This document shows, piece by piece, positions 5,627 to 30,959 of a DNA stretch of 44,089 nucleotides. Numbering within the stretch: the stretch's first letter is position 1; each line of letters opens with the position of its first letter. The DNA is from a virus. The notes under the pieces were generated by a model. It did not search any database, had not been told where the DNA came from, and saw only the letters and a list, made by a program, of their open reading frames with translations. The stretch lies in IMG/VR virus record IMGVR_UViG_3300044966_000228, positions 1 through 44,089 of that record. The stretch is one strand, 5' to 3'. The position numbers and the translations under genes are program-made.

Positions 5627-5649
5627 ATTTAACTCCAAGTGTATGTTGT

Positions 5650-11736: not shown

Positions 11737-12170
11737 TGAGCGCAAAATTATATCAACGGGTTAGCCTACCTAGTAGTAAAACAACAAAAGAACTTATATT
11801 GCCTAAGACATATGCTGGATTTAGTACAGTAAGTACTGCAGCTAATCACTTTAGCTTATATGATTACGAGTTAATTAAGCAAGACATTATGAATCATTTT
11901 CATATTAGATTAGGCGAACGGTTAATGCAACCAAATTTTGGAACAATTATATGGGATATATTATTTGAACCAATGACAGAGCAAGTAAAAAGTATTATTA
12001 AAGAAGATGTTACTCGAATTGTTAACTATGATCCTAGAGTTACAGTGCAGAACACAAAAATTACTGCATATGAGAGTGGAATCAACATAGAGTTTAAGTT
12101 AAAATACACCCCGTATAACATTACTGAAGAGATAAAATTGAAATTTGATCAAGCTAATGGTTTAGGATAA
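11736..12170 (+). CDS. 25: Baseplate wedge protein gp25
   Basis: A 144-aa protein of the gp25/lysozyme-like wedge family, which nucleates the sheath on the baseplate and is shared with type VI secretion (TssE). The core is YELIKQDIMNHFHIRLGERL, then MQPNFGTIIWDILFEPMTEQ and KEDVTRIVNYDPRVTVQNTK. The family EPR motif is seen as EPM here. Length is close to T4 gp25 (132 aa). Despite the old family name it is not an active lysozyme. It is coupled to the spike gene by a TAATG overlap and ends before the late promoter of gp6. Confidence 0.93.
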   Translation: MSAKLYQRVSLPSSKTTKELILPKTYAGFSTVSTAANHFSLYDYELIKQDIMNHFHIRLGERLMQPNFGTIIWDILFEPMTEQVKSIIKEDVTRIVNYDPRVTVQNTKITAYESGINIEFKLKYTPYNITEEIKLKFDQANGLG

Positions 12171-12218: not shown

Positions 12219-15200
12219 ATGAGTGCAACCGACAGACAAAATAGATTATTAGTAGCCGAAGATTGGAAAAAGATATACCAATCTTTTAAAAGTGCAGATT
12301 TTCAAAGTTATGATTTTGAAAATTTACGGCGTACAATGGTTGACTATATTAGACAAAATTACCCAGAAGATTTTAATGATTATATCGAAAGTTCGGAGTA
12401 TCTAGCTTTAATTGATGTAATTGCATTTTTAGGTCAAAGTATAGCGTTTCGTGTAGATTTAAATGCTAGAGAAAATTTTTTAGAATTAGCAGAAAGACGA
12501 GAAAGTGTTTTAAGACTAGCTAAGTTAGTAAGCTATAATGCCAAACGATCAATTGCTGCTAAGGGATTATTAAAAGTTACAGCTATACAAACTACTGAAG
12601 ATGTGTACGATAGCAACAGTAGAAATTTGTCAGGGCAAAATATTACGTGGAATGATCCGTCTAATGTTAATTGGTATGATCAATTTATTAAAGTAGCAAA
12701 CGCAGCTATGCCGTTATCTCAACAGTTTGGTAACCCAGCTAACAGTGGAGTTATCTATGGCATACCGACTAATCAGTATATGTTACAAAGTACAAATACT
12801 GATGTTCCAATTTACACATTTTCTAAAATGATCGCTGGTCGGATGATGAGTTTTGAAGTTACTAGCACAACATTTGCTGGTCAAAATTACATATATGAAG
12901 AATCGCCAAAACTTGGAAGAAAATTATCTTGGGTGTATAGAAATGATAGTCATGGTTACGGTAGTCCCGGAACTGGATTCTTTTTAAATTTTGTTCAAGG
13001 ATCGTTAGGGTCTGCGCAGTTTATTATTAATCAACCTAGAAAAAACGAAGTTGTTGATGTTGATTCAACCGGTATTAACAATACAGATGTATGGTTGTAT
13101 CGATTAGATAAAGACGGTAAGGAATCAGAAGAATGGGTGCAAGTTCCTAGTGTTGAAGGCAACAATATTATTTACAATAGCATTAATAAGAATATTAAAA
13201 ACATTTTCAGTGTTCTTACTCGAACAAACGATGCAATCAGTTTATCATTTAGTGACGGCACATTTGGTAAATTACCGTATGGCACCTTTAATACATATCA
13301 CCGTATGAGTAACGGATTGTCGTACACAATTAATACTAAAGATATTCGTAATATTACAATCTTAGTACCGTACCTTTCTCACGTAGGGCAACCGCAGTCA
13401 TTAAGTTTGACATTAAGTCTTGCAACATCAGTGTCTAACGCAGAATCTACAGAGACTAATAGCAGTATCAAAACTAACGCTCCGGCAACATATTATACAC
13501 AAAACAGAATGATTACTGGTGAAGATTATAACATTTGTCCATTGAGCGTGAGCCAGCAAGTATTAAAAGTTAAAGCAATTAATCGTACATCAAGCGGTAT
13601 TAGTAGATATTTTGATTTAGTTGATCCAACTGGAAAATATAGTTCAACTAACCTATTTGCAGATGATGGCGTGATATACAAAGAAGAATACGAATCATAT
13701 GTTAAATTTTCGTATAGTAGTAAAACTGATATTGAAGGCATTATTTATAATACGCTTGATCGTATATTAAAATCTGCAGATTTACGAAACTTTTACTATC
13801 AACAGTATCCAAGTTTTGCAGTGTTAGGAAGCACATTAAATGTATCATGGCATAGAACTACACCAGATGTAGTATCGTCAACTGGTTATTTTTATGCTAC
13901 AGCAACTGGCGATCCACAAGGAGTAGGCATATCAGCACCAATTGCATCAGCTGAATTAGGGTATGTTAAATTAGGGTCATTAATTAAATTTATAAGTCCA
14001 GAAGGCAAATATTTTGATACTAGAAATCAAAATAAATTAGTTGATTTACCTACTAGTACAACCGTTGAGATGATTTTAGGTGCATCGACATATATATGGG
14101 CATCAGTTACTTCAATAGTAGGTGACGGAACTACTGAAATTGATGGGATTGGACCAATTACGTTAAATGTGGATATTGATACAGGTGCGATTGTTACTCA
14201 AATTATACCTAAGTTTCGAATAACGTTAGATCTTAGTGTAGTTACTACAATGATTGATTTAATATCTGAAAATAAAATGTTTGGGTTACGATATAATATT
14301 TCAACACAAACTTGGCAAATTGTATATGAATCGGATTTAAATTTAACAGATTTGTTTAGTTTATTTAATCAAGGCGATATTACTAATAGTCAAATTGATG
14401 CTAGTTGGATGTTATTGTTTACTACTAATAATGAATTTTATACAATTACTAGTCGTAATCTACGATATATCTTTGAAAGTGATAGTCAACTTAGATTTTA
14501 TTTTGATAAGAACGAACAGGTATATACTAGTAAATCAAGTAATTTAATTAGAGATAAAATTAATATCTTAAGTATTAATACTCGACCAGGTAGTACTGCT
14601 GCATATACTACTGATTTTAAATGGGATGTTGTATCGGAATTTATTGGATTAGATGGGTACGTTGATAATAAAAAAATTGTAGTGTCGTTTGCAGATGTTG
14701 ATGATAACGGATCAGTCGATAATCCGGATTTATTTTCAAATATTATTGACAGTGATTCTTTATATGTGTTTCAAGAAAAATATGCAATTTCTACAGGACA
14801 GGATGATTATAGATATGTTAATAACATGAATGATAGTAAAGTTAACATTGTAGCTGATGAAACTATATATTCCGGCGTTGCTGGACAGTATTATTATTTT
14901 CCAACAACAAACGTAGTTAAGTTAGCAGAACCGTCTGGAATGTTACAGCCAACATTAGATTATAAGGCATATGAAGGTCGAGCAAATTTAAAGTTCCAAT
15001 ATGTTCATAATGCTAATTATGATTCTAGAATTGATCCAGGTCTTAGCAACATTATTGATGTGTTTATTTTAACTAAAGGATATGATACTGCATTTAGAAA
15101 ATGGGTATCTGGTGCAATTAGTATTAAACCGTTACCGCCTAGTTCAACAGAATTATATAATACAGTTGCATCGTCGTTAAACTTAATTAAATCAATTTCA

Positions 15201-15665
15201 GATGAGGTAATCTACCATCCGGTGATGTATAAAATATTATTTGGTGCGTCAGCAGCCTTGGAACTACAAGCAACATTTAAGATTACAAAAACACCTGGAT
15301 TAGTAGTATCTGATAACGATGTTAAATCTCGCGTTATTACTGCAATTAATAGTTTCTTTAATTTAGATAACTGGGATTTTGGTGATACATTCTTCTTTAC
15401 AGAATTAGTAACATATGTAATGAATGAGTTAACTCCGGATATTTCAAATTTTGTAATAGTTCCTCGTAAACAAGGGTTAAATTTTGGAAGTTTATACGAA
15501 ATTAAATCTTTAAGTAACGAAATATTAATAAATGGAGCAACGGTTGATGATATTGAAGTTATTTCTGGTATCACTGCAAGTAATATTAAAACATCAAATT
15601 CTGCATCAATTGATTCATTAACAAATCAACAGAATATATCTAGCTCATCATATGGGAGTATTTAA
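12219..15665 (+). CDS. 6: Baseplate wedge protein gp6
   Basis: gp6 forms the wedge ring that holds the contractile baseplate together. The 1,148-aa protein has the characteristic N-terminus (VAEDWKKIYQSFKSADFQSY, then TMVDYIRQNYPEDFNDYIES and FLGQSIAFRVDLNARENFLE followed by RRESVLRLAKLVSYNAKRS) at residues 10-115. The C-terminal gp6/BaseplateJ-like part lies around residues 970-1120 (SDEVIYHPVMYKILFGASAA to FGDTFFFTELVTYVMNELTP). It is nearly twice as long as T4 gp6 (660 aa); the extra material is a beta-rich middle, roughly residues 560-950. The stop overlaps the start of the giant wedge gene as TAATG, so the two are translated in a coupled fashion. Confidence 0.92.
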   Translation: MSATDRQNRLLVAEDWKKIYQSFKSADFQSYDFENLRRTMVDYIRQNYPEDFNDYIESSEYLALIDVIAFLGQSIAFRVDLNARENFLELAERRESVLRLAKLVSYNAKRSIAAKGLLKVTAIQTTEDVYDSNSRNLSGQNITWNDPSNVNWYDQFIKVANAAMPLSQQFGNPANSGVIYGIPTNQYMLQSTNTDVPIYTFSKMIAGRMMSFEVTSTTFAGQNYIYEESPKLGRKLSWVYRNDSHGYGSPGTGFFLNFVQGSLGSAQFIINQPRKNEVVDVDSTGINNTDVWLYRLDKDGKESEEWVQVPSVEGNNIIYNSINKNIKNIFSVLTRTNDAISLSFSDGTFGKLPYGTFNTYHRMSNGLSYTINTKDIRNITILVPYLSHVGQPQSLSLTLSLATSVSNAESTETNSSIKTNAPATYYTQNRMITGEDYNICPLSVSQQVLKVKAINRTSSGISRYFDLVDPTGKYSSTNLFADDGVIYKEEYESYVKFSYSSKTDIEGIIYNTLDRILKSADLRNFYYQQYPSFAVLGSTLNVSWHRTTPDVVSSTGYFYATATGDPQGVGISAPIASAELGYVKLGSLIKFISPEGKYFDTRNQNKLVDLPTSTTVEMILGASTYIWASVTSIVGDGTTEIDGIGPITLNVDIDTGAIVTQIIPKFRITLDLSVVTTMIDLISENKMFGLRYNISTQTWQIVYESDLNLTDLFSLFNQGDITNSQIDASWMLLFTTNNEFYTITSRNLRYIFESDSQLRFYFDKNEQVYTSKSSNLIRDKINILSINTRPGSTAAYTTDFKWDVVSEFIGLDGYVDNKKIVVSFADVDDNGSVDNPDLFSNIIDSDSLYVFQEKYAISTGQDDYRYVNNMNDSKVNIVADETIYSGVAGQYYYFPTTNVVKLAEPSGMLQPTLDYKAYEGRANLKFQYVHNANYDSRIDPGLSNIIDVFILTKGYDTAFRKWVSGAISIKPLPPSSTELYNTVASSLNLIKSISDEVIYHPVMYKILFGASAALELQATFKITKTPGLVVSDNDVKSRVITAINSFFNLDNWDFGDTFFFTELVTYVMNELTPDISNFVIVPRKQGLNFGSLYEIKSLSNEILINGATVDDIEVISGITASNIKTSNSASIDSLTNQQNISSSSYGSI

Positions 15666-18600
15666 TGGCTAACAATGAAATATACATACCTAGAGATGCA
15701 TCTCTAGATACTAGCGACAGCAATAACACTGCAAACTTTTTACCTAATTTTTATAGAACTGATGCTAATAAAAAGTTTTTGCATGCAACTATAAATCAAT
15801 TAACTCAACCTGGTACTGTAAAGAAAGTTAATGGATTTATTGGTAGGTTATCTGCAAAGGCAACTACATCTGATGATATTTTTATTGATGCGCCATCGTC
15901 TGATAGGCAGAATTACCAGTTAGAGCCGGGTATCGTTATTAATGATGATATGAACAACACTGTGTTTTTAAAAGATTATTTAGATTACGTTAATCAATTA
16001 AAAACCTTAGGTGCAAATATAACAGATCATTCAAGATTAAATGCACAAGAAATGTATAGTTGGAATCCTCATATTAATTGGGATAAATTTGTAAATTTTC
16101 AAGACTATTTTTGGATGCCACATGGCCCGGCTACTATTAATATTAGAAATTCGATCTTACCTGTTGAAAGTACATATTCTGTTATTACTGATATAACCGG
16201 ACCAGATACTGCATTTATACTAACGCCAGACGGACTAACTCGAAATCCGACAATTACTTTATACAGAGGATATACATATCAATTTGATGTTAATACACCT
16301 AATGATGTTTTTAGTATTAAAACTACTAGAAGTATCGGTAAATCAAATCGATATACTGTAGTAGAAAATAACGCAATTACTTCTGGTACTATTACATTTA
16401 CGGTTCCTTTTAATTCACCTGACATTTTGTATTATGTAAGTGAGTCTAATATTAATGCCGGCGGTGTAATTAAACTATTAGACATTAGTGAGCATACTCA
16501 AATTAATGTTGAAGATGAAATTATTGGTAAAAAAACGTACACATTACCTACTGGACTAGAATTAAGTAATGGCATGTGCGTAACATTTAGCGGAGAAGTT
16601 ACACCTTTAAAATATTCTACTGGAAAATTTCACGTAGCAGGTGTAGGTACTGCAATACAATTAATTCCAGATGCTGATTTGGAAATTATTTCAACATATA
16701 CTACCTCGACATCAATATTATTTGACACTACTAATTTTGATGTAACACCGTTTGGTAATGCAAATTCGTATGCTGCTAATATTGATTATATTGTAATTAG
16801 TCAAGGTAGTGTTGATCGAAATCAATGGAGTCGATATAATAAATGGGTTCATAAATCTGTTATTGAATCGAGTGCAAAATTTAACAATATAAACGCAGAG
16901 TATAATCAGTCGCTGCGTGCAGTTAGACCAATTATTGAGTTTGATGATAATTTAAAATTATTTAATTTTGGAACACAGTCAGCAGGTAATGTTGACTTAA
17001 TTGATAATTTTACAACTGATGTTTTCTCAGTAATTGAGGGATCGTTAGGATATACAATCGACGGGGTAGCAGTTACTTCGGGCCAACGTATTATTTTTAC
17101 AGCCGATCCTGATCCACTAGTAACAAACAACATTTATCGAGTAGAATTTATAGATGTAAAACATACAACGGATTCTTTTGGCAGATCAACAAGCAAGCAA
17201 ATTCGTTTAATTTTAGAGTTAAAACCTAACATTAATGACGTGGTTTTGATAAAATCTGGTATTAATTTACAAGGGCATATGGTTTGGTATAACGGCATTA
17301 CTTGGTTAGCTGCACAACATAAAACATCAGTAAATCAACCACCATTGTTTGACGTAGTTGATGATAATGGGATTTCGTTTGGTGATACTACTGAATACAG
17401 TGGATCTACATTTAACGGAACCTCAATATTTTCATATAAAATAAATTCACTAGGGACATTAGATCCGTATTTAGGGTTTGGATTAACGCATAAAAATATC
17501 AATAACATTGGGGATATTGTTTTTAATTTTACATTAATAACTGATTCATTTAGATATGATGCAAATGCATCAACAACTAAAAAAATTGATACTGGATTTT
17601 TAGTAGTTAATACTGCTATTCCAACATATGTTAATGGATGGACTACTTGTAAAAATAAAAATACTCAACCGGCAATACGAATATATAAAAATTCAAATAA
17701 AACAAATAATTTTGATATTGATATATTTGATAACTTGCCTGCATTAACTGATATTGAAGTTCGCATATATTTAAATGGTGTGCGAGTTTCTAAGATTAAC
17801 GATTCTAAAACTAAAATTTGGGATATTGTATCAACTGCAGTTACTGTAACTAATCAAACTGCGCTGTTACCATATCATCAAATTGTATTTACTACTCCAA
17901 TTAAATTAACCGATGTAGTTACTATTAACGTGTTTTCATCAATACCAATTAATGAAAATGGGTATTATGAAATTCCTGTAAATTTACAACATAATCCATT
18001 AAATGGCGTGTTAACTGAATTTACATTAGGTGAAGTAATTGATCATGTTGACAGCATTGTTGATAACATATATTTAGGACAGCACAATATTCAATTTGAC
18101 GGTGTATTTCCCGGAATTAGCAATTTACGAGATTTAGGAAACGTGTCGGCATATGGCACAAAATTTGTTCAACATAGTGGTCCGTTAAGTTTATCAATGT
18201 ATCATATTGCATCTGATAATAACGTTATTCGTGCAATTGATAACTCAAGAGATGATTATAGCAGATTTAAACGTACATTTTTAACAGTTGCATCTACGTT
18301 AGGCGTTACAACAGAAACAAAAGAACATGTAGATCTAATTTTAAATGCAATGAATGCAAATACGCCAGTAACATCATCGTATTATTTTAGTGATATGATA
18401 CCATACGGTGCAAATACTAAAACTGAGTTTATAATACGTGATTCGGAAGTTCGCATTTTTTCTCTAGCAACGGTTTTTACATTAGATAGTTTATCAACAG
18501 CTGCAGTGTTATTGTACCTAAATGGTAACCAGTTATTACACGGCATTGATTACCGGTTTAATATTCAAGGATTTGTAGAATTAATGCCAACTGTAGTGTT

Positions 18601-21600
18601 GCAGTATGATGACGAATTATTAATTTATGAATATAGTAATACTGATGGTTGTTTAATACCTGAAACACCAACAAAGTTAGGTATTTGGCCAAAATACACT
18701 CCAAAAATATTTAAAGATACGTCATTAGTAACACCTAGATGGATGATACAAGGCCACGATGGCAGTTTAACGCTAATATATGGCAGCTATGATGATGTTA
18801 CTCATCAATTGGTATTAGATTATCGAGATGAGTTAATTCTTGAATTAGAAAAACGAATTTATAATAATATTAAAGTACAGTATGACCCAACTATTTTTGA
18901 TATATGTGATACTATTCCGGGGTATGATCGCACAACACCGTATTCGTTACAGGAGTTTAATCAAGTATTACTGCCTAGTTATTATCATTGGGCAGTTAAT
19001 GTAAAGCAAGATTTTTCAACAATGTTAACTCAAAACAGATACAACACATTTGTGTATAACTATAGCAATCATTACACGTCAAACAATCAAAAGTCGCCCG
19101 GATATTGGAGAGGTATATATCGATGGATGTACGATACAGATCGCCCGCATATTTGTCCATGGGAAATGTTAGGGTTTAGCGAAGAACCTATATGGTGGGT
19201 TGAGGTATATGGTCCTGCTCCGTATACTAGTGACAATATAGTAATGTGGACTGATTTAAGCAACGGCTGTATTAAGGCGCCAAATACACCGATTAAAATT
19301 GTATCTAAATTTGTTAGACCTACGTTATTAAATAATTTACCAGTTAACGAAAATGGTGAATTAATTAGTCCTCAAGAAAGTGGAATAGTTAACGGAATAA
19401 TAACAGAACCAATGCAAGGTGATTTTGTGTTCGGTGATGTTTCACCAGTTGAAGCAGCATGGAGACGTAGTTCGTATTATCCATTTAGTGTATTAAAGGC
19501 TGCGGTATTATTAACACCGGCTAAAACAATTGGTGTATTATTGGATAGATCTAGAATTTCAAGAAATTTAAATAATCAGTTAGTATATACAGATACAAAT
19601 GTACGTATTAATTTATCAGATATTAAAATACCAAGTATATACCTAAGTACATCTCGTATACAAACAGCCGGAATTATAAATTACTTAATAAACAATATTG
19701 ATTCTACTACAATTACGTCGTATAATCAATACAAATCTGAGTTAACGTCAATAACTGCACAGTTGTGTTACCGAGTTAGTGGGTTTACGAGTAAAGAAAA
19801 ATTTAAATTAATGTTAGAATCAAAAACTCCATTAAGCTCAGGAAGCATTTTTATTCCGCAAGAAGACTACACGGTAGTTTTAAATACTTCTTCACCTGTA
19901 AATGTAGTTGTATATAGCGGCGTAATTATTACAAAAATTGAAGGCGGCTATGAAATTAAAGGGTATAGTACTTCTCAACCATACTTTAAATATTATAAAA
20001 GTAGTGTAAGCGGATCATATATAACTATTGGCGGAGTATCTGCAGCATATGCAATATGGGCACCTAATCAGTATTATGTAAAAGATAGATATGTAAAGTT
20101 TGGTAACAGATATTTTAATACAAATGTTTCTCATACTTCTAGTGAATTCTTTGAATCTAGCTATTTTACAGCATTAGTAGAATTACCAATTTCGGGCGGC
20201 GAACGAATTGAATTTAAACAACAGTGGGACACTGAAGCACAAACTGTACTGTATGGGACTAAATTTTCGTCAATACAGGGAGTAGTAGATTTTTTATTAG
20301 GATACGGTAAATGGTTGGCTGATCAAGGATTTATTTTTGATGAATACAATACTACATTGGGTGCAGTATCAAATTGGGAAACTAGTGCTAAAGAGTTTGT
20401 ATTTTGGACAGTGTCAAATTGGGGAGTTAATCAGCAAGTTTGGGAAGAATGGATACCAAATGTTACTGTTCATTACAACGATATAGTTCGATATAATGGT
20501 GATTATTATAAAGCATTAACTACTATGAACGATCCGGTGTTTAATAATCAAAAATATGCAGTATTAAGTGGACTTAATTATGAAGGTAATTCGGTATTAA
20601 CATTAAGTCCTGCTGCAACTACTTTATTATTTAAAACAACGTTAAGTGTAGTTGATGATATTCAAAATCCTAAGTATGTATACGAAATGTTTGATGTTAA
20701 CGGTAATCCGATTCCACTGTCGTTCATAAACGCATTTAGAACAGACAATGTTGTAAGTTACAAATCTAATACAGAATCATACATTTATTGTGCAAGTTTT
20801 CATCTAGTACAGCGCGAGCACGTAATAGTAATTAACAACACTACTATGTTTAATGACACTATTTTTAACCCTGAAAGTGGGTATAAACAAGATAAAATTA
20901 AAGTATCTGGATATGTAAGTACCGATTGGAATGGTTCAGTAAATGTACCGGGATTTGTTGTAGATCGTGCAGAAATTGCACGTTGGGTACCATGGACTGA
21001 TTATGCGTTTGGTGATGTTGTTAAACATCGAACATTTTTTTATAGCGCAACTTCTTATATTCCTGGAACTGAGCTATTTAATGACTCAGATTGGAGTAAG
21101 TTAGCTCAACCATTAACTGCAAAGTTATTACCAAATTGGAATTACAAAGCAACTCAGTTTACGGATTTTTATAGTTTAGACAGTGATAACTTTGATATTA
21201 CACAGCAGCGTATGGCTCAGCATCTTATTGGATACCAAAAGCGTCAATATTTAGAAAATATAATTCAAGATGATGTAAGCGAGTTTAAATTCTATCAAGG
21301 TATGATAGTTGAAAAAGGTACACAAAATGTTCTTAATAAATTGTTTGATGTATTAAGTGCAGATGATAGAGAAAGTTTAACATTTTACGAAGAATGGGCA
21401 ATTCGATCAGGGTCGTACGGCGCATGTGAATCATTTAATACTATTGAGTTTATACTAAACGAATCGTCGTTTAAAGCTAATCCGCAAGGTTTTGAATTAG
21501 TATATGTTGATCCGTTAATTAACGATCAGGTTATTCGATTATTGCCATCTGATATCTATTCAAAACCAATTGGGTATTCACCGTCAATTTGGAAAGAAGA

Positions 21601-24600
21601 TGCGTATAAATCACAAATTTTAAGACCTTGCGGTCATGTTAGATCAAGTGAAGTATCGTTAACTGTTAAATCTCTTAGTGAGTTGGTAACGTTAACTAAC
21701 ATTCAGTTATCAATTGGAAATTATATATGGTGTACATTTGAGGGATCAAGTTGGAATGTGTATACGATCATACCGACATCAGTTAGACTTAAAAGTTTAT
21801 TTCTTGATTCAGCTAACGATCTTGTTATTTTTACAACAACTGAAGCACACGGGTTAACTAATGGAATGTATATTCAATTAATTGATACAAATGAGATTCC
21901 GCATATTACTGAAGATTACAATAACGTATTTTTTAAAGTTAATTTAACTGCAGCTGACGGTAGTGACTATATTGACACTGAATTTAGCATTACATTACCT
22001 AGTGCGCATTCGTTACCGGATGCTGCAGTTGCAAAGATTAACATTAATACTTTTGAATCTCGACGATATGCAACGGTAGATAGTGACAATATACCAGCTG
22101 ATCCAACCGCAGGTGACTTAATATGGACCGACCATTACGTTGACACTGATAATAAATGGACAACTTGGCAATATCAAACATCAAAATGGGAAGTATTGCA
22201 TACAGTTAATCCTAAACCGGACATAACAAAAATTAAACAGGCGTTTTTGTATAATAAAATTAACAATCAGTTAATTACATATTTAGATATAGTAGATTCA
22301 AATAATGGTAAAAACCCAAATATTGCTGATCAAGAAGTTAAATTTAAATCTTTTTATGATCCTGCAATATATAGTGTAAAAACTTCATCAACTGTTGTTA
22401 GCGGAGTTAATGTTGATGATAGTATTGCATGGACAACTGATCAAATTGGTACCTTATGGTGGGATTTAACAACTGCTAAGTTTATTAACAGCTATACTGA
22501 AGATGTAGTATATCGAAACACAACCTGGAGCACTCTTGCATACGGTGCATCAATTGATGTGTATGAATGGGTAGAATCAACAGTGTTGCCATCTGTGTGG
22601 GACGAAGAAGCAGATACCGAAGCAGGATTAGCAGACGGAATCAGCGGAAAATCACTTTACAGTGATTTATTTTATAGTCAAACACGGACGTATGATACTG
22701 TAAGCCAACGATATTCGTATACATATTATTTTTGGGTTAAGAATAAAATAACAATTCCTAGTATTGTTGGAAGAAAGATGTCATCGTTTGATGTTGCAAA
22801 TTTAATTGCAAATCCAAGAGGTGAAGGTTATGAATTTTTAGCATTAACAGGGTTAGATTCGTTTAGCTTAGTAAACATTAAACCATATTTACAACATGAT
22901 GATGTTGTGTTATCAATTGAATATTGGATTAATGATAAAATTGATCAAAATATGCATACTCAGTGGAAAATTATTAGTACAAACGAAAATACTATATTAC
23001 CAGCAGCAATTGAACAAAAATGGTTTGATAGTTTATGCGGACGTGATTTACAAAATCGAGAAGTTCCTGATCCGTTATTACCAGTTAAACTTAAATATGG
23101 TATTCAAAATCGACCACGACAAAGCATGTTTGTTAATCGATGCGAAACAGTAAAACAGTTTATTGAACAATTAAATTTAATATTAAAAAAACATTTAATA
23201 GTAGATACCCGAAATATATCTAACTTATTTTTGTATGATCCAATTCCAAATATTAATAGAGGATTATACGACGCTGTTATTGATACTGATTTAGAATTAA
23301 GATTGACGGTTGCAAAGTCATATATTAAACCATTAATTACGCCTCTTATTGTTAATGGACGAGTGGTAGGAATTAATATAATTAATGCAGGTCGAGGATA
23401 TTTAATACCCCCGTATGCTACAGTAGTTGGTAGCGGTGTTGGTGCAATGTTAAAACTAACAATAGATACTATTGGGCAAATTATTGGATGTACAGTTGTG
23501 CATTCAGGAGAAGGGTATACTTCTGAGTCGTCTATTGAAGTTAGAAACTATTCAGTATTGATTAAAAGCGACTTAACTTCAAATGATAGTTGGAGTATTT
23601 ATGAGTACAATCGAACTACAGAAACGTGGAATAAGACGTTAATGCAATCATATAATACTCGAAAATATTGGGAATATTTAGATTGGTACGACGAAGGATA
23701 CAATCAATTTACTGCTATTAATTATTCAATTAGTACATATTCTGATTTGTCTACATTAACTAACGTAAAAATTGATGATGTTGTTACTATTCGAACTACT
23801 ACATCGAATCGATGGGTATTATTGAAAAAGTATGACACTAGTTCGTCAGCTGATTGGACACAATCATATAAAATTATCGGTAGCCAGAACGGTACTATTC
23901 AGTTTAGTTCATTGTTGTATGATTTTATAGATACATCAGTTGGATACGAAGGAATGTTTTATGATCAAGGAGTATACGACAACAGTGCAGTAACCGAATT
24001 GCGTATAATTTTAGAATTAGTAAAAAATAACCTGTTAATTAACGATTTAAAATCAGAATATTTGCAATTATTTTTCACATGTGTGCGTAGTGCGTTGAGC
24101 GAACAAACGTATATTGATTGGATCTTTAAAACTAGTTTTGTAAATGTAATGCATAATGTTGGACCATTACACCAATCAGTTACATATCAAAATGATAATT
24201 TAACTAATTTTGAGGAATATGTAAGTGAAGTTAAACCATACAGGACTCAAGTTAGAGAATATGTTAGTTTATATGACACAATTGAGACAACTCAATTAAT
24301 GACTTCTGATTTTGATGTACCTGCAGAGAACAGATCAATGTATTCACTAGTAGATGGTAACGTAATTGCAGCTGATAATGCAACCTATCCAACAAAGAGC
24401 TGGTACGATAATGCAGGGTTTTCTGTAACTGAAATACGGATAATTAACGGCGGAGCCGGGTACACTACTCCGCCAACTGTAACAATTGTTAGTACTTCAG
24501 GAAAAGATGCAACTGCAAAGGCGTATGTTGCAAATGGTAAGGTATCTCGTATTACTGTAGTAACTGCAGGATCGCATTATGTTTCAGTACCGGAGATTAA

Positions 24601-27319
24601 AATTGAATATGGGTTACCGCACGATGGAATACCGGCAGTTGCAGTTGCTATATTAGGAAACGGCGTTGCTCGATCAAGTCTAATTAACTTAAAATTTGAT
24701 CGAATTTATAATTCATATGCTGTCTCAACATTAAACTGTGTTGATAAATTTTCTAGTACAGGTGCAGTGCAATATAAATTAACATGGGCACCTGATATTC
24801 GTATTGGAAATTCATCAATAACTGTTAATGGAGTATTGCAACTTCGTGATACGTACAAACTTAAAATTATTTCAGTAACTACAGCGTCTGGGTATAAATC
24901 ATATGCAGGTGCAGTTACATTTGAAGTTGCACCGGTTGGTGATATTGTAGTAACTTACATAAAAGATGTAACATTGTTAACTGCAGTTGACAGAATTCAG
25001 TATTACTATAAACCGGAATTGGGTGATTTAGGTAAAGATCTAGCACAATTAATGACCGGAATTGAATATGCCGGAGTAACTGTTAGTGGTTTAAACACTA
25101 ATAATTCAACCGGATGGGGAAGTACTCCGTATTATACCGATTCGTGGGACAGTTTCAAACCGTTAACTGATGATTACCGTGTTTCAGTCGCTAGTAATAC
25201 ATATTCAATTAAATTACCATATGTGCCTGAGTTAGGTTCAATATTAAACGTATATTATTCGTATACTAATATAGTATCATTTAATACTGATGGCAGAACA
25301 CTTTCGTATTATTATGAAAAATATGAAAATATACCGGAGGTGTCGTTACATAAAATTGTTGCAGCAGCTGCAATTGGGGTAAAGGATAGTAACATTATAC
25401 AAGTTGAATCAATCGATCAAATTAAAATTGGAGATATTGTTTCAAATAGTAGTCATGCAGTAGTAACTACTAAATTAAAGTTGTTATCAACAGTATCAGC
25501 TGGATATTATCTAACAGTTAAAGATACATCAATATTGTATGAAAACATGCCATTGTATTTTATAGGTACTGCAGTAGTACTTGGTACTAATATATCAGTT
25601 GGCGGGTTGTTAACTGATCATACATATTATGTTCATAGTATTGATGCTAATTCTAGTACACGATTTACAGTAAAAGCACAGATCAACGATGCAGCAGCAG
25701 TTCAGGTTACTACTGCAACTGGAAATATGACAATAGTTGCAGGTGAATTTAAGTTTAACACAACAGTTACAGGAATTAATGCAGATACAAATACTATTAC
25801 ATTATCTGATACTTTAAGCACGGTATTAGTAAATCAAACACTGATAAAATTCAGTCGTACGCTAATTAAATACCAAGATTTTTCAAATATTAGCAGAACA
25901 AAAATTGTATTAAAAAAACGAATTGTTTCTGGAATGAAATTAGAATTGAGTGGTAAACTTGCAGTAATTCGATTAGATGATGACCAGTACGGAAGTAGTT
26001 CTGTAAAAAATGATAACGCAATAATGTTACCATTTGTTGCAGACGGAGTATTAGATACAGTGACAATACCATCTTCGTATATTGATAAAACTGGAACAAC
26101 TAATACATTTACTGTTAACGCCGGTGACATTTTTATTATTCGTAATTCACAAAGTTCTGGTGAAGAAACTGAATATGATATTGATACTGCTATCAGTGGC
26201 GGTAATTTTGCACTTAGTTCAGCAGCAGGAATTGCGTCGGCTGAAATTGTTATTGACGGGTCTGAGCTAATTAATCAAGATACAGACGCCGGACCTGAAG
26301 AAGTAGTACCTGGTAATTTAGTTGATGCAGTTGCAATTAAGATTTTTGACATAAATGACTCGGGATCCTATATGCAATTTAAAGATATGCTAAATCGTAC
26401 TCATATTAAACGATTAAATGCTAATAAGCAAACTAGGTTAGCAGTTGAATTACTACAAGCTGATACTACGATAACAGTAGTTAATGCAAGCGCATTTGAA
26501 GCACCATCTCCGGAATACAATAAACCAGGTGTAATTGATATACACGGTGAGCGCATTGAATTTTTTACTATTAACGATAATGTATTAGGGCATGTATTAG
26601 GGCAACTTCGTCGTGGTACATTAGGAACTGGAGTTGCAACAGTACATGAAGTGGATTCAATAGTACAAGAAATTGGTGCAAGTGAATCTATTCCAATTCA
26701 AGATAAAATAATTGTTAATCAGTATGAATCTAATGGATCTCAGTTTGTTGATATTTCAGTGTTACCAATAAAGTCTAATAACTGGAATATGAAAACTACA
26801 TTCTTAGCAGTTGAGTTATTAGATACTGATGATACTATAACTGTTACTGATGCAAGTATATTTGAAGATATGCCCGGTACTGTTACTATACAAGGCGAGA
26901 CTATTAAATTTGATGCAATTAATGGAAATGTATTAAGTGGATTACGCAGGGGCGCATCAAGTACAATAATTCCGCTAGTACATAAGGTGCATGCAATTGT
27001 TCAAAACATTACATTAGCATCGTACGGACAATGCGATAATATTGAAGTTCTTATTAACGGAGTAATATTGAAAAAAATGCCTTATCAAATACATAATATC
27101 AATATTAATGCAGTAAGTCCACTTGGTGATGTACAGTATGATGCAGAATTTTCAGTAGATGGCAAAGCCAAGCAAATTCGATTAAGAGATGCAGTACCTG
27201 CAGGCACGTTAATAACGGTTATTAAACGTATAGGATTTAGTTGGACTAATGCAGTTACAGCAGAGACTATTACTAGATTTTTAAACGGCGCACCTGGAAG
27301 TCAGTACCCTGACAATTAA
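15665..27319 (+). CDS. Giant baseplate wedge/structural protein (position of gp7), 3,884 aa
   Basis: An uninterrupted 3,884-residue protein follows gp6 where T4 has gp7 (1,032 aa) and gp8. The N-terminus (NNEIYIPRDASLDTSDSNNT, then FLPNFYRTDANKKFLHATIN) and the aromatic-rich block around residues 1070-1290 (YYHWAVNVKQDFSTMLTQNR, RGIYRWMYDTDRPHICPWEM, EEPIWWVEVYGPAPYTSDN) look like large wedge proteins of marine T4-like phages. Three W-aromatic modules near 1465, 1595 and 1773 resemble CBM5/12 sugar-binding motifs (for example WIPNVTVHYNDIVRYNGDYY). Two GxGY repeats occur near 2575 and 2925. VSEVKPYRTQVREYVSLYD occurs near 2855. A pair of beta modules near 3588 and 3711 ends the protein (LAVELLQADTTITVVNAS and LAVELLDTDDTITVTDAS). 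No protease or lysin motif is seen. The likely role is a peripheral wedge scaffold with fibre-docking or surface-binding modules. The wedge role is inferred from gene order. Confidence 0.75.
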   Translation: MANNEIYIPRDASLDTSDSNNTANFLPNFYRTDANKKFLHATINQLTQPGTVKKVNGFIGRLSAKATTSDDIFIDAPSSDRQNYQLEPGIVINDDMNNTVFLKDYLDYVNQLKTLGANITDHSRLNAQEMYSWNPHINWDKFVNFQDYFWMPHGPATINIRNSILPVESTYSVITDITGPDTAFILTPDGLTRNPTITLYRGYTYQFDVNTPNDVFSIKTTRSIGKSNRYTVVENNAITSGTITFTVPFNSPDILYYVSESNINAGGVIKLLDISEHTQINVEDEIIGKKTYTLPTGLELSNGMCVTFSGEVTPLKYSTGKFHVAGVGTAIQLIPDADLEIISTYTTSTSILFDTTNFDVTPFGNANSYAANIDYIVISQGSVDRNQWSRYNKWVHKSVIESSAKFNNINAEYNQSLRAVRPIIEFDDNLKLFNFGTQSAGNVDLIDNFTTDVFSVIEGSLGYTIDGVAVTSGQRIIFTADPDPLVTNNIYRVEFIDVKHTTDSFGRSTSKQIRLILELKPNINDVVLIKSGINLQGHMVWYNGITWLAAQHKTSVNQPPLFDVVDDNGISFGDTTEYSGSTFNGTSIFSYKINSLGTLDPYLGFGLTHKNINNIGDIVFNFTLITDSFRYDANASTTKKIDTGFLVVNTAIPTYVNGWTTCKNKNTQPAIRIYKNSNKTNNFDIDIFDNLPALTDIEVRIYLNGVRVSKINDSKTKIWDIVSTAVTVTNQTALLPYHQIVFTTPIKLTDVVTINVFSSIPINENGYYEIPVNLQHNPLNGVLTEFTLGEVIDHVDSIVDNIYLGQHNIQFDGVFPGISNLRDLGNVSAYGTKFVQHSGPLSLSMYHIASDNNVIRAIDNSRDDYSRFKRTFLTVASTLGVTTETKEHVDLILNAMNANTPVTSSYYFSDMIPYGANTKTEFIIRDSEVRIFSLATVFTLDSLSTAAVLLYLNGNQLLHGIDYRFNIQGFVELMPTVVLQYDDELLIYEYSNTDGCLIPETPTKLGIWPKYTPKIFKDTSLVTPRWMIQGHDGSLTLIYGSYDDVTHQLVLDYRDELILELEKRIYNNIKVQYDPTIFDICDTIPGYDRTTPYSLQEFNQVLLPSYYHWAVNVKQDFSTMLTQNRYNTFVYNYSNHYTSNNQKSPGYWRGIYRWMYDTDRPHICPWEMLGFSEEPIWWVEVYGPAPYTSDNIVMWTDLSNGCIKAPNTPIKIVSKFVRPTLLNNLPVNENGELISPQESGIVNGIITEPMQGDFVFGDVSPVEAAWRRSSYYPFSVLKAAVLLTPAKTIGVLLDRSRISRNLNNQLVYTDTNVRINLSDIKIPSIYLSTSRIQTAGIINYLINNIDSTTITSYNQYKSELTSITAQLCYRVSGFTSKEKFKLMLESKTPLSSGSIFIPQEDYTVVLNTSSPVNVVVYSGVIITKIEGGYEIKGYSTSQPYFKYYKSSVSGSYITIGGVSAAYAIWAPNQYYVKDRYVKFGNRYFNTNVSHTSSEFFESSYFTALVELPISGGERIEFKQQWDTEAQTVLYGTKFSSIQGVVDFLLGYGKWLADQGFIFDEYNTTLGAVSNWETSAKEFVFWTVSNWGVNQQVWEEWIPNVTVHYNDIVRYNGDYYKALTTMNDPVFNNQKYAVLSGLNYEGNSVLTLSPAATTLLFKTTLSVVDDIQNPKYVYEMFDVNGNPIPLSFINAFRTDNVVSYKSNTESYIYCASFHLVQREHVIVINNTTMFNDTIFNPESGYKQDKIKVSGYVSTDWNGSVNVPGFVVDRAEIARWVPWTDYAFGDVVKHRTFFYSATSYIPGTELFNDSDWSKLAQPLTAKLLPNWNYKATQFTDFYSLDSDNFDITQQRMAQHLIGYQKRQYLENIIQDDVSEFKFYQGMIVEKGTQNVLNKLFDVLSADDRESLTFYEEWAIRSGSYGACESFNTIEFILNESSFKANPQGFELVYVDPLINDQVIRLLPSDIYSKPIGYSPSIWKEDAYKSQILRPCGHVRSSEVSLTVKSLSELVTLTNIQLSIGNYIWCTFEGSSWNVYTIIPTSVRLKSLFLDSANDLVIFTTTEAHGLTNGMYIQLIDTNEIPHITEDYNNVFFKVNLTAADGSDYIDTEFSITLPSAHSLPDAAVAKININTFESRRYATVDSDNIPADPTAGDLIWTDHYVDTDNKWTTWQYQTSKWEVLHTVNPKPDITKIKQAFLYNKINNQLITYLDIVDSNNGKNPNIADQEVKFKSFYDPAIYSVKTSSTVVSGVNVDDSIAWTTDQIGTLWWDLTTAKFINSYTEDVVYRNTTWSTLAYGASIDVYEWVESTVLPSVWDEEADTEAGLADGISGKSLYSDLFYSQTRTYDTVSQRYSYTYYFWVKNKITIPSIVGRKMSSFDVANLIANPRGEGYEFLALTGLDSFSLVNIKPYLQHDDVVLSIEYWINDKIDQNMHTQWKIISTNENTILPAAIEQKWFDSLCGRDLQNREVPDPLLPVKLKYGIQNRPRQSMFVNRCETVKQFIEQLNLILKKHLIVDTRNISNLFLYDPIPNINRGLYDAVIDTDLELRLTVAKSYIKPLITPLIVNGRVVGINIINAGRGYLIPPYATVVGSGVGAMLKLTIDTIGQIIGCTVVHSGEGYTSESSIEVRNYSVLIKSDLTSNDSWSIYEYNRTTETWNKTLMQSYNTRKYWEYLDWYDEGYNQFTAINYSISTYSDLSTLTNVKIDDVVTIRTTTSNRWVLLKKYDTSSSADWTQSYKIIGSQNGTIQFSSLLYDFIDTSVGYEGMFYDQGVYDNSAVTELRIILELVKNNLLINDLKSEYLQLFFTCVRSALSEQTYIDWIFKTSFVNVMHNVGPLHQSVTYQNDNLTNFEEYVSEVKPYRTQVREYVSLYDTIETTQLMTSDFDVPAENRSMYSLVDGNVIAADNATYPTKSWYDNAGFSVTEIRIINGGAGYTTPPTVTIVSTSGKDATAKAYVANGKVSRITVVTAGSHYVSVPEIKIEYGLPHDGIPAVAVAILGNGVARSSLINLKFDRIYNSYAVSTLNCVDKFSSTGAVQYKLTWAPDIRIGNSSITVNGVLQLRDTYKLKIISVTTASGYKSYAGAVTFEVAPVGDIVVTYIKDVTLLTAVDRIQYYYKPELGDLGKDLAQLMTGIEYAGVTVSGLNTNNSTGWGSTPYYTDSWDSFKPLTDDYRVSVASNTYSIKLPYVPELGSILNVYYSYTNIVSFNTDGRTLSYYYEKYENIPEVSLHKIVAAAAIGVKDSNIIQVESIDQIKIGDIVSNSSHAVVTTKLKLLSTVSAGYYLTVKDTSILYENMPLYFIGTAVVLGTNISVGGLLTDHTYYVHSIDANSSTRFTVKAQINDAAAVQVTTATGNMTIVAGEFKFNTTVTGINADTNTITLSDTLSTVLVNQTLIKFSRTLIKYQDFSNISRTKIVLKKRIVSGMKLELSGKLAVIRLDDDQYGSSSVKNDNAIMLPFVADGVLDTVTIPSSYIDKTGTTNTFTVNAGDIFIIRNSQSSGEETEYDIDTAISGGNFALSSAAGIASAEIVIDGSELINQDTDAGPEEVVPGNLVDAVAIKIFDINDSGSYMQFKDMLNRTHIKRLNANKQTRLAVELLQADTTITVVNASAFEAPSPEYNKPGVIDIHGERIEFFTINDNVLGHVLGQLRRGTLGTGVATVHEVDSIVQEIGASESIPIQDKIIVNQYESNGSQFVDISVLPIKSNNWNMKTTFLAVELLDTDDTITVTDASIFEDMPGTVTIQGETIKFDAINGNVLSGLRRGASSTIIPLVHKVHAIVQNITLASYGQCDNIEVLINGVILKKMPYQIHNININAVSPLGDVQYDAEFSVDGKAKQIRLRDAVPAGTLITVIKRIGFSWTNAVTAETITRFLNGAPGSQYPDN

Positions 27320-27368: not shown

Positions 27369-27974
27369 ATGCAGAATAAAGATATTACAGGCCTACATAT
27401 AGAAGGGCATATTAAAATATTTGACCCAGTTAGTAACGAGGTATATGTAAATAAAAGAAATGCAATACATTATGAAAATATAAGTATTGCGTTGGCACAG
27501 AGTATTGCAAATAGCAAAAACGGGTTTATATATCAAATGGCGTTTGGCAACGGCGGAACTGCAGTTGATCCAACTGGAATTATTACATATTTAACTCCAA
27601 ATAGTTCAGGATCAAATGCAAGTTTATACAATCAAACTTTTATAAAAGTTGTTAACGATCAATCGAGCAATAATATTGATCCAACCCGAAATTATATACA
27701 AACAAGACACGTAACTGGTGTGAATTATACTGATGTATTTGTATCGTGTTTGTTAGATTATACTGAACCATCCGGACAAAGTGCATTTGACACGTCAACT
27801 AATAGTGATGGTAACTTTGTATTTGATGAATTAGGTTTAAAGTCATATAATGAAGATGGCGATAGTATGTTGTTAACTCATGTAATTTTTCATCCAGTGC
27901 AAAAATCGTTAAATCGATTAATCCAAATTGAATATACTGTTCGTATACAAAGTTTAACAAGTATTGGAGTATAA
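27369..27974 (+). CDS. Virion structural protein, 201 aa, unknown role
   Basis: The protein reads as a compact beta-rich structural subunit: GHIKIFDPVSNEVYVNKRNA, HYENISIALAQSIANSKNGF, YQMAFGNGGTAVDPTGII, NATVFVSC-like strands ending FVFDELGLKSYNEDGD, and LTHVIFHPVQKSLNRLIQIE. I have the impression of similar proteins next to fibre genes in other large T4-like aquatic phages, but cannot name a T4 counterpart. Its location between the giant wedge protein and the fibres suggests a connector between baseplate and fibres. It has its own late promoter, and the next gene's ATG directly follows its stop. Confidence 0.6.
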   Translation: MQNKDITGLHIEGHIKIFDPVSNEVYVNKRNAIHYENISIALAQSIANSKNGFIYQMAFGNGGTAVDPTGIITYLTPNSSGSNASLYNQTFIKVVNDQSSNNIDPTRNYIQTRHVTGVNYTDVFVSCLLDYTEPSGQSAFDTSTNSDGNFVFDELGLKSYNEDGDSMLLTHVIFHPVQKSLNRLIQIEYTVRIQSLTSIGV

Positions 27975-27975
27975 A

Positions 27976-30042
27976 ATGACATATCAAGTTAAATTTACTG
28001 AAAGTACTAACTCCGCAAAGCCGGCGTTAATTGTTGAAGATAAAGCAGTTAATGATCAAACCTCATTAGTGTTTGTTGGTCAAAATTCGTCAGGGTATGC
28101 ACCAATTTTTGCAGAAAATTTCCTACATTTGTTAGAAAATTTTGCCAAAAATATTCCACCATCTAATCCAGTTGAAGGCCAATTATGGTATGATAACACT
28201 ACTTCTGAGTCATTACTTAAAGTATTTGATGGCTCAAATTGGTTACCTACTGGATCAGTTACTAGAAATAGCGTTGCTCCTAGTAGTGTAAGCAGTATTA
28301 ATGGTGATCTTTGGGTTAACACTAATACACAACAGTTATACATCTTTTCCGGAACGTCTTGGTCGCTAATTGGGCCACAATTTAGTACTGGGTTAAAAAC
28401 AGGAACAACAGTTGACACAGTAAGTGACACATTAGCAGATGTTAACAACACTGCAGATCATAATATAATTTCATTGTATGCAAATAATGAAAGAATTGCA
28501 ATTCTTAGTGCAGAAACATTTACTCCAAAGGCATATATTACTGGATTTCCAAAGGTTAACCGAGGAATTACGTTAACAACTGAACAGGAGTCTTTAGTTA
28601 GTGCGAAACTAGTAGGTACTGCAACTGCAGCTGATAGTTTAAATGTTAATTCAGTAGCAGTTGCTGCTTCAAATTTTTTAAGATCTGATGTAGTGTCAAC
28701 AACCGTTAATGAGTTTCAAATTAAATCAGTTAGTGGTTTAACAATTGGAGGAGATTTAAGTTTTAATATTGGGCAACCTGTTGTAAATGCTGATGCAACT
28801 GGGTTAATTGCATTAACATCAACTAATAAGAATGTGCAATTTCGAGTAAAAGATACGTTAAATGCATTGTCGACTGTAATGCATATTGATACTCGATTGC
28901 GTGTAGGGATTAAGAATATTAATCCACAATCGGATTTAGATGTAACAGGAACTGTTGCAGTTAGCAGTAATGTAGTAGTAGGTAGCGCAACTGCGTTGTC
29001 GACGGTAGCAACTGGCGGAATTACATCTTATGGTAACTTATCTGTGTATCGAGTTGCAACATTTAATGGTGAAGTAAAAACTACTAGTAAGTTAATAGTG
29101 TCGTCTCCAATAGGCATAAATGCAAATTTACCAAATCCGGCAATTGTGCCAACAATTTCTGAAACTTTTGACATTGGTTCTGAAAGTTTAAAATTTAGAA
29201 CAATATATGCTACTAATATTACTGCAAGTAATTTTACCGGCGGATTAACTGGTGATGTTACTGGAAATGTATCTGGCTCTGCAATGACATTAAAGGCAGC
29301 GGCATCAATTGAACTAATTGGTGACATGACAAGTGCTGCAGTATCTTATAATGGCAAAGACAACATTCAAATTAATACAACAGTTAGTTCTGGATTTATA
29401 ACAAACAAACCAGAAGTAACTGAGTCATTTGATAATGATACATTATTAATATTTCGAAATGCAGCATCGTCTGCATCGGCTGAAGTAAAGAGAATTAGTA
29501 AAACTAATTTTTTAGAAACTGTACCATCTGTACCAGTTGGTGCAATTTTTCCGTATGCAGGAAAAGTAGATGCATTACATCCGGCACCTAAAGGGTATCT
29601 ATTATGTGACGGATCAGAGTTATTAATAGCAACGTATCGAGCATTACATGAAGTTATTGGCACTACATACCGATCTAATTTAGTAGGTAATGGAACATTT
29701 GCATTACCTGATTTAAGAGGTAGATTTCCGTTAGGTGCTGACAATATGGACAACCCATCGTTAGCTAACGTGCCTGATATAATAAGCGGTGATTTAATTG
29801 ATGCACGTGGCAACAGAAATGGAACCGTCGGCGGTGTAGCAATAAATCCGTTACAGCGAGCTAACCGAATACAAAATGAACAAGGTCGAACACTTGGCGG
29901 TTCTTCAGGTGCTGAAACGTTTGGGTCAGCAGTTGCAGAAACTGGTACTAACAAATTTGAAACATCGCCTTTAGGTACGCTGTATTCAGATATGAATCCA
30001 TACTTAACTATCAATTATATAATATTTACAGGTGTGCTATAA
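27976..30042 (+). CDS. Tail fibre protein with C-terminal tail-collar domain
   Basis: A 688-aa fibre. The start is taken at the ATG at 27976 rather than a TTG four codons upstream, because TTGGAG then forms the ribosome-binding site. Residues 1-130 are the fibre N-terminal module shared with the next two genes (FVGQNSSGYAPIFAENFLHL, EGQLWYD, GDLWVNTNTQQLYIFSG). The shaft has short fibre repeats (FTGGLTGDVTGNVSGSAMTL and AATAADSLNVNSVAV-like segments). Residues about 515-600 form a phage tail-collar domain (VPVGAIFPYAGK, PKGYLLCDGSELLIATYRAL, FALPDLRGRFPLGADNM), as in T4 gp12 and many fibre tips. The collar domain is usually the receptor-facing end. The stop overlaps the next start as TAATG. 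Confidence 0.88.
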   Translation: MTYQVKFTESTNSAKPALIVEDKAVNDQTSLVFVGQNSSGYAPIFAENFLHLLENFAKNIPPSNPVEGQLWYDNTTSESLLKVFDGSNWLPTGSVTRNSVAPSSVSSINGDLWVNTNTQQLYIFSGTSWSLIGPQFSTGLKTGTTVDTVSDTLADVNNTADHNIISLYANNERIAILSAETFTPKAYITGFPKVNRGITLTTEQESLVSAKLVGTATAADSLNVNSVAVAASNFLRSDVVSTTVNEFQIKSVSGLTIGGDLSFNIGQPVVNADATGLIALTSTNKNVQFRVKDTLNALSTVMHIDTRLRVGIKNINPQSDLDVTGTVAVSSNVVVGSATALSTVATGGITSYGNLSVYRVATFNGEVKTTSKLIVSSPIGINANLPNPAIVPTISETFDIGSESLKFRTIYATNITASNFTGGLTGDVTGNVSGSAMTLKAAASIELIGDMTSAAVSYNGKDNIQINTTVSSGFITNKPEVTESFDNDTLLIFRNAASSASAEVKRISKTNFLETVPSVPVGAIFPYAGKVDALHPAPKGYLLCDGSELLIATYRALHEVIGTTYRSNLVGNGTFALPDLRGRFPLGADNMDNPSLANVPDIISGDLIDARGNRNGTVGGVAINPLQRANRIQNEQGRTLGGSSGAETFGSAVAETGTNKFETSPLGTLYSDMNPYLTINYIIFTGVL

Positions 30043-30959
30043 TGAGCTATTTAATAAACAAAACAGATGGATCTCTATTAACAGAGATTGTTGACGGAAC
30101 TGTAGATCAATTATCTACTAATTTAACATTAATTGGTAAAAACGCAAACTCGTACGGCGAGAGTTTAAACGAAAATTTTGTTCGATTATTAGAAAATTTT
30201 GCATCTGATATTAGACCTACTAATCCAATTCGAGGTCAAATTTGGTTTGATATTACCGAAAGTCGATTAAAGGTGTATGACGGAACTGCATTTAGATTAA
30301 GTGGCGGTACCGTTGTTGCTAGTTCGATGCCAAGTTCAATGTCAATTGGCGATTTGTGGATTGACAGCAGAAACAAACAGCTATACTTCAATGATGGAAT
30401 TTCAAATGTATTAGCAGGGCCAATCGATTCACCAAGTAACGGGATTGCAGTAGTAGCAGTAACGGATGATATTGGCGGGTCACATAACATTATCACAATC
30501 ACAATTTCACCAATATCAAACAATGCAGTAGATCCAATCTTACTTGCAATTTTTAGTGTAGATGAATTTACATTAAACGACTCTATAGTAGGGTACGATG
30601 GCTTGGATATTAAGAGAGGGTTTAATTTTCAGGCGTTACAGGATGTAAACACAAGCATTACAAATATTAGTGATCCGATTAACGATTTAGATGTAGTAAA
30701 TTTGCAAACACTTAACAATGCAGTGAAGCAAACACCTCTAGCAATTTCTTTAAACACTACTAATATACCGGGAGACAATGATGATAAAAATGATGCAATT
30801 GCTAATAATTTTTTAGCTAAAATTTTCCCATCAGATGAACATAGTGTTGACGGAGTTGAAGGACCAATATGCAGAGTTGTGGTTACTAACCAATCTACAG
30901 TATCAATTAAAGAGTTTAAGTTAATAAATTCCAATTGGACGTATCAAACAACGTTATAA
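30042..30959 (+). CDS. Tail fibre-like protein, short paralogue
   Basis: A 305-aa protein whose first 130 residues repeat the fibre N-terminal module (LTLIGKNANSYGESLNENFV, RGQIWFDITESRLKVYDG, GDLWIDSRNKQLYFNDG). The remainder is a short beta-rich part without a collar or other recognisable tip domain (ITNISDPINDLDVVNLQTLN, DNDDKNDAIANNFLAKIFPS, EFKLINSNWTYQTTL). It may be an adaptor or a fibre section that pairs with the longer paralogues. It is translationally coupled to the preceding fibre gene and followed by a late promoter. Confidence 0.75.
   Translation: MSYLINKTDGSLLTEIVDGTVDQLSTNLTLIGKNANSYGESLNENFVRLLENFASDIRPTNPIRGQIWFDITESRLKVYDGTAFRLSGGTVVASSMPSSMSIGDLWIDSRNKQLYFNDGISNVLAGPIDSPSNGIAVVAVTDDIGGSHNIITITISPISNNAVDPILLAIFSVDEFTLNDSIVGYDGLDIKRGFNFQALQDVNTSITNISDPINDLDVVNLQTLNNAVKQTPLAISLNTTNIPGDNDDKNDAIANNFLAKIFPSDEHSVDGVEGPICRVVVTNQSTVSIKEFKLINSNWTYQTTL

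Follow-up and report, generated by a model that had tools for sequence, protein, structure and literature searches.

Gene content of the locus

The window, that is, the whole 44,089-nt stretch of viral DNA analyzed, contains an open reading frame that starts with ATG, is free of internal stops and encodes a protein of 3,884 amino acids (hereafter the giant). The first-pass annotation had described a single frame of about 11.6 kb, filling more than a quarter of the window and encoding a protein nearly four times the size of T4 gp7; this was borne out, the gene spanning 11,655 nt (26.4% of the window) and the product being 3.76 times as long as the 1,032 residues of gp7. At ca. 32% G+C, the arithmetic probability of a stop-free run of 3,884 codons arising by chance is about 1e-134. 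The start of the gene overlaps the stop of gp6 by 1 base, and the order of genes is gp53, a 729-aa protein, gp5, gp25, gp6, the giant, a 201-aa protein, a gp12-like collar protein, two fibre-like proteins and a 3,078-aa fibre. The main features are:

7705–8007, + strand: gp53-like wedge subunit (phrog_7145, phrog_232; T4 gp53 profile match)
10198–11736, + strand: gp5-like hub protein (phrog_13211, phrog_430; T4 gp5 profile match)
11736–12170, + strand: gp25-like baseplate wedge subunit (phrog_43, phrog_261)
12219–15665, + strand: gp6, wedge protein of the baseplate with 1,148 aa, adjoining the giant on its 5' side (phrog_10646, 4e-299; phrog_219, 3e-17)
15665–27319, + strand: the giant, proposed gp7-slot baseplate protein, phrog_10938 (open reading frame, profile match, homologues)
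27369–27974, + strand: 201-aa protein 3' of the giant (phrog_11259, 2.7e-68)
27964–30042, + strand: gp12-like short tail fibre with Collar domain (PF07484, 2.8e-17; T4 gp12 profile match, probability 94%)

Profile comparison of the neighbouring open reading frames with T4 families gave no match to gp8, gp9, gp10 or gp11 in the window, in agreement with the earlier observation that no separate gp8, gp10 or gp11 follows the giant. Since the window is a 44-kb fragment, absence of gp8 and gp10 was also checked in four complete relatives (see below). A protein of equal size to the 201-aa product also lies downstream of the giant in PA5oct, Atu_ph07 and SCTP-2. The 729-aa virion protein encoded at 8009–10198, with gp53 on one side and gp5 on the other, is kept in PA5oct and RaK2 and is perhaps a hub protein. 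Three consecutive proteins (27964–30042, 30042–30959 and 30990–32741) share a module some 70 residues long at the N-terminus (phrog_15511, phrog_14394), perhaps a baseplate docking domain, and the 3,078-aa fibre-like protein (32752–41988) contains Calx-beta and glycine-rich domains. A GIY-YIG-type homing endonuclease gene (4862–5638) is found between an SbcD-like gene and a late sigma factor.

The giant belongs to a family of virion proteins coupled to gp6

The giant matched phrog_10938, a 3,324-position profile annotated as 'virion structural protein', with E = 0 and 1065 bits in five stretches covering most of its length. Members of this family come from RaK2-like, PA5oct-like, Atu_ph07-like and SCTP-2 phages, and at least 581 IMG/VR stretches encode relatives of the giant. 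With tblastn, 70 phage records contained homologues at a cut-off of E ≤ 1e-3 and 278 at E ≤ 1, the additional records sharing only a domain at residues ~180–273, mostly with cyanophage tail proteins. In the comparison with PA5oct, 83% of the first 2,200 residues were covered. Single-query searches of viral contigs with the RaK2 and SCTP-2 giants returned RaK2 itself at most. Full-length homologues lie directly 3' of gp6 in PA5oct (3,857 aa), RaK2 (3,326 aa) and Atu_ph07 (4,449 aa). The cultured members (PA5oct gp355, RaK2 ORF070, Atu_ph07 gp180, SCTP-2 gene 140 and CBB_236) are homologous to the window protein along most of its length at 25–30% identity, and share with it, for the most part, the position directly after gp6; they occur in virions, and sizes in the family range from 3,326 to 5,460 aa. 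Among the 96 complete homologues (of 164 collected), length reaches 5,460 aa, with a median of 4,715 aa, which makes the window protein one of the shorter members; it is without the long residue-2170 insert. The giant is not unique but one more representative of a known family. In one homologue (L026) the gene is split by a frame change (18000–18060) inside the insert at the residue-2170 site, probably an assembly indel.

The first-pass annotation had placed the giant in the position of gp7, and this was supported by its neighbourhood: a gene of gp6 size overlapped it or ended within 77 nt upstream at each of the 149 loci where the upstream gene is complete, as gp6 and gp7 adjoin in T4, by overlap or close spacing. 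At 14 other loci there was no room upstream, or the gene there was truncated or displaced. The exception was SCTP-2, whose homologue (gene 140, 3,807 aa) lies ca. 90 kb from its gp6. The gene directly 5' of the SCTP-2 giant (L005, 8621–17911) encodes 3,096 aa.

Members of the family have been detected in virions. The record of PA5oct gp355 carries an ESI-MS/MS note identifying it as a virion protein. Two further proteins, taken as homologues of the giant by size and position, have been reported in virions and adjoin genes annotated as 'baseplate wedge': phAPEC6 gp245, of 381.9 kDa, next to gp244 (PMC7247149), and CBB_236, next to CBB_237 (PMC5259590). These reports bear on whether the frame could encode a precursor that is cut into several mature wedge proteins. 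The size of the giant would suit such a precursor, but no cleavage site or protease evidence was found, and a single full-length gene product is reported for phAPEC6 and CBB, with a mass-spectrometric coverage of only 7–8% (PMC7247149, PMC5259590). We regard processing as very improbable.

A conserved scaffold broken by variable sites

Conservation was computed across 134 sequences. A conserved scaffold (residues ~36–2050, 2150–3200 and 3500–3700) was found to be broken by variable sites. The best conserved stretch was 1841–1920, whose two 40-residue blocks are 74% and 64% identical to the window protein, followed by 1161–1200 and then by 1001–1040. AlphaFold2 models covered residues 600–1765 (pLDDT 87, pTM 0.83) and 1740–2905 (pLDDT 84, pTM 0.61). 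Features within the giant are given below; hhalign probabilities are from pairwise runs, are not calibrated as in a database search, and were assessed by comparison with reversed and unrelated controls.

16226–16483, + strand: residues 188–273, domain common to cyanophage gp9 and tail-fibre proteins (tblastn with P-SSM2, 42% identity, E 7e-9; alignment)
17732–17944, + strand: gp10-like beta module 1, residues ~690–760 (hhalign score 38 against T4 gp10 353–387, probability 44%)
18467–18664, + strand: gp10-like beta module 2, residues ~935–1000 (hhalign score 42 against T4 gp10 353–394, probability 63%; Foldseek)
18662–19564, + strand: family-defining conserved block, residues 1000–1300, with GHDGS, LELEKRIYNN and PWEMLGF (conservation; within AlphaFold2 model 600–1765)
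20051–20194, + strand: CBM5/12-like (chitin-binding-fold) module 1, residues 1463–1510 (internal repeat)
20432–20569, + strand: CBM5/12-like module 2, residues 1590–1635 (PF02839, E 1e-4, below cut-off; Foldseek 2rts, probability 1.00)
20972–21106, + strand: CBM5/12-like module 3, residues 1770–1814 (internal repeat)
21137–21457, + strand: candidate gp7 core, residues 1825–1931, helices, KGT motif, helix and long beta hairpin (gp7-core profile, HMMER ranking, AlphaFold2, invariant FY.G.I..KG)
22157–22204, + strand: insertion site 1, residues 2165–2180 (alignment with relatives)
23360–23542, + strand: GGxGY beta repeat 1, residues 2566–2626 (self-comparison)
23990–24283, + strand: conserved helix pair and strand-helix-strand, residues 2776–2873 (AlphaFold2 and conservation; no profile support)
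24425–24589, + strand: GGxGY beta repeat 2, residues 2921–2975 (phrog_460, 3.8e-13; self-comparison)
26327–26389, + strand: insertion site 2, residues 3555–3575 (alignment with relatives)
26432–26674, + strand: C-terminal RRG repeat copy 1, residues 3590–3670 (self-comparison)
26786–26971, + strand: C-terminal RRG repeat copy 2, residues 3708–3769 (self-comparison, E 2.7e-11)

Alignment placed the domain at residues 188–273 in the window protein and not in the giants of RaK2, PA5oct and SCTP-2. Insertion site 1 has a median length of 624 aa in the relatives, compared to 16 aa in the window protein and in L048. In two relatives (L124 and L018) FG-GAP propeller repeats were recognised within this insert, with PF14312 exceeding the Pfam cut-off (1e-14 and 4e-8); the Atu_ph07 insert is of a different kind, and the window giant has no propeller. 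At insertion site 2 the median in relatives is 431 aa. The CBM5/12 label is to be read as 'works-like' only, because PF02839 scored 22.6 bits on the giant, below its cut-off of 26.2, while the fold matched 2rts with a probability of 1.00. Profile comparison with solved structures yielded nothing beyond chitin-binding domains, none better than E 0.04, and chance hits to unrelated proteins. The inserts of FG-GAP or other type at fixed sites, together with the gp10-like and chitin-binding-fold modules, constitute a modular expansion.

A candidate gp7 core

The phrog_964 (gp7) profile did not match the giant, direct hhalign of the whole giant with T4 gp6–gp12 gave nothing significant for gp7 or gp8, and gp7 slices derived from T4 only found no unique match. 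A unique best place was obtained only with a broader gp7-core profile that included X1, phiM7 and cyanophage sequences and was slid along the giant in slices. Slice 1801–1980 scored best, with 26.3 compared to 17.4 for the next one, and slices 1801–1861 scored 25–26. Controls gave 15.5 (reversed giant), 16.6 (window gp6) and at most 17.2 (other T4 proteins), and true distant gp7 pairs scored 49–92. The segments aligned at the KGT motif, GMIVEKGTQNVLNKLFDVLSADD and DFYLSRGTEASFRFLFRMLFNAD, matched without gaps. When core slices were used in HMMER, X1 gp7, several T4-type gp7 proteins and two cyanophage gp7-slot proteins came near the top of 843 open reading frames, at the KGT motif, with E-values of 0.37 or worse, below significance. 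In the AlphaFold2 model of residues 1740–2905, two helices flank KGT and are followed by long strands, the order expected of gp7. Foldseek with this model, which includes an 850-residue insertion, gave no PDB match at E ≤ 0.001 and no gp7 among the best 50 listed, the leading viral matches being mostly proteins of Atu_ph07 and uncultured phages. The C-terminal half of the gp7 core (HPxGF) was not found in the giant by sequence; residues 2776–2873 are a possible counterpart.

The first-pass annotation had named independent gp7 and gp8 genes elsewhere as the finding that would speak against it; none were found in the four complete relatives (PA5oct, RaK2, Atu_ph07 and SCTP-2). All four contain gp6, none a T4-type gp7 by search with phrog_964. 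The gp7-core motif was not found elsewhere in these genomes either, although controls T4 and X1 matched at 1e-32; this search misses the giants too, so another equally diverged core in the relatives could escape it. Homology of the giant to gp7 appears likely, on the basis of its position and a weak motif.

Alternatively, the giant could be an added peripheral baseplate or fibre-network protein placed after gp6, with the gp7 core missing or too diverged. The failure of gp7 profiles to match it significantly, its chitin-binding-fold, FG-GAP and GGxGY content, typical of peripheral proteins, and the broken synteny in SCTP-2 are consistent with this. However, the coupling to gp6 is near-universal, it is the helical KGT region and not the binding modules that is most conserved, and no other candidate for gp7 was found. 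An added peripheral protein appears improbable, and a diverged gp7 in the slot after gp6 is preferred.

Probable expansion of a gp7-slot protein rather than fusion with gp8

The giant had also been proposed to fill the place of gp8. This was not supported: gp8 profiles phrog_977 and phrog_438 did not match the window protein, and hhalign scores did not exceed those of reversed controls. Among the four complete relatives gp8 was found in none, a single 28-residue match in Atu_ph07 at E 0.008 being discounted. Matches of phrog_438 inside the Atu_ph07 giant all fell on one short stretch of the profile (185–280) and were read as the GGxGY repeat.

Similarity to gp10 was local. Two sites of the giant matched T4 gp10 353–394 with hhalign scores of 38–42, compared to 27 for the reversed control, and probabilities of 44–63% compared to at most 4.6%. 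The first Foldseek match of residues 600–1765 was gp10 of a variant of the T4-type Klebsiella phage KP1 (9f4b chain FA), with E 2.5e-3 and a low TM-score, indicating agreement of local domains only. The gp10 C-terminal domain was found in only one of the four complete relatives, PA5oct, as a separate protein. Since gp10-like beta domains also occur in tail-fibre proteins (PMC10253068), these matches support expansion by modules and not descent from gp10.

A more far-reaching reading is that in this phage group a single polypeptide of 3,300 to more than 5,400 residues builds the entire wedge arm in place of gp7, gp8 and part of gp10/gp11, propellers and glycan-binding modules being exchanged at hot-swap sites. 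Such a true wedge-arm fusion would account for the failure to detect gp8 in the four complete relatives and gp8–gp11 in the window, and for the two gp10-like modules. It is countered by the gp8 scores at control level, by the separate gp10 domain protein of PA5oct, and by the 201-aa downstream protein, which could do the work of gp8. Moreover, great size by itself is no proof of fusion, given that cyanophage ACG-2014f encodes gp8 separately from its giant gp7-slot protein. We consider a fusion of this kind unlikely, if somewhat less so than an added peripheral protein. Of the earlier proposal of a fusion or expansion with surface-binding modules, the expansion stands, with carbohydrate-binding-fold and gp10-like beta modules, and a literal gp7–gp8 fusion is unsupported in the absence of gp8 similarity above background. 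A gp7-slot protein enlarged by plug-in domains is the better description.

Comparison with gp7 and gp7-slot proteins

T4 gp7 (phrog_964, PDB 5IV5) resembles the giant in its gene place after gp6 and, tentatively, in a weak KGT helix motif and the helix-beta pattern, but has no significant overall similarity, and the chitin-binding-fold, GGxGY and RRG modules were not seen in its 1,032 residues. Xanthomonas phage X1 gp7 (498 aa) and Sinorhizobium phage phiM7 gp92 (1,006 aa) carry the gp7 core motif and represent the small gp7 of T4-type phages; they are a quarter or less of the length of the window giant, and each is followed by another annotated wedge protein (in X1 gp8-like, phrog_438). X1 gp7 (L117, 11737–13233) links T4 gp7 to the cyanophage giants found after gp6 (L200, L202–L205).

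Kyanoviridae gp7-slot proteins reach 4,225 aa in ACG-2014f ('baseplate wedge initiator'), 6,273 aa in S-CAM22 and 7,022 aa in ACG-2014c. As such proteins are already annotated in cyanophages, giant size in this slot is not new. Like the window giant, they come immediately after gp25 and gp6. However, they have a clear gp7 core near the N-terminus (residues ~200–700), whereas the candidate core of the window giant begins at residue 1825; the ACG-2014f giant is followed by a separate gp8, whereas the window giant has no recognisable one; and only short domains are common to the two groups. Cyano- and pelagimyophages have been reported to lack gp7 and to have VrlC instead (PMC7029224). The clear gp7 core in the giant gene after gp6 of the cyanophages examined is in tension with this. 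TssG and P2 gpI are adaptors of the conserved wedge triangle that join two TssF/gp6 subunits (PMC6300606); these are small proteins, and the function proposed for the giant is the same.

Proposed role in the baseplate

On balance, the giant probably occupies the gp7 slot in the baseplate wedge of a T4-type contractile tail; the phage would be a large one with affinities to the RaK2, PA5oct and Atu_ph07 groups. The core of the giant (residues ~1825–1931, perhaps also 2776–2873) would join two gp6 copies, as gp7 or TssG do in (gp6)2–gp7. The N-terminal half, with the gp10-like beta modules, and the C-terminal half would form the outer arm of the wedge, a place of attachment for fibres and further proteins. 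Chitin-binding-fold and other modules, placed at fixed positions, may bind glycans or contact partner proteins. Elsewhere in the family the residue-2170 site is occupied by an FG-GAP propeller or another long insert, and the window phage does without one.

No paper assigning a gp7-slot function to the phrog_10938 family was found in the literature searched, and what is new here is this proposed assignment for the RaK2/PA5oct/Atu_ph07 family together with the module map. Although the giant ranks with the largest proteins of these jumbo phages and has been detected in virions repeatedly, records list it as 'structural' or 'hypothetical' and nothing more. Placement in the gp7 slot would give it a testable job and would tie the baseplates of RaK2-, PA5oct- and Atu_ph07-type phages to the T4 plan, and the module map marks fixed positions where surface-type domains swap. 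The gp7 core of the cyanophage giants, in turn, bears on the view that gp7 is absent from cyano- and pelagimyophages and VrlC used in its stead (PMC7029224).
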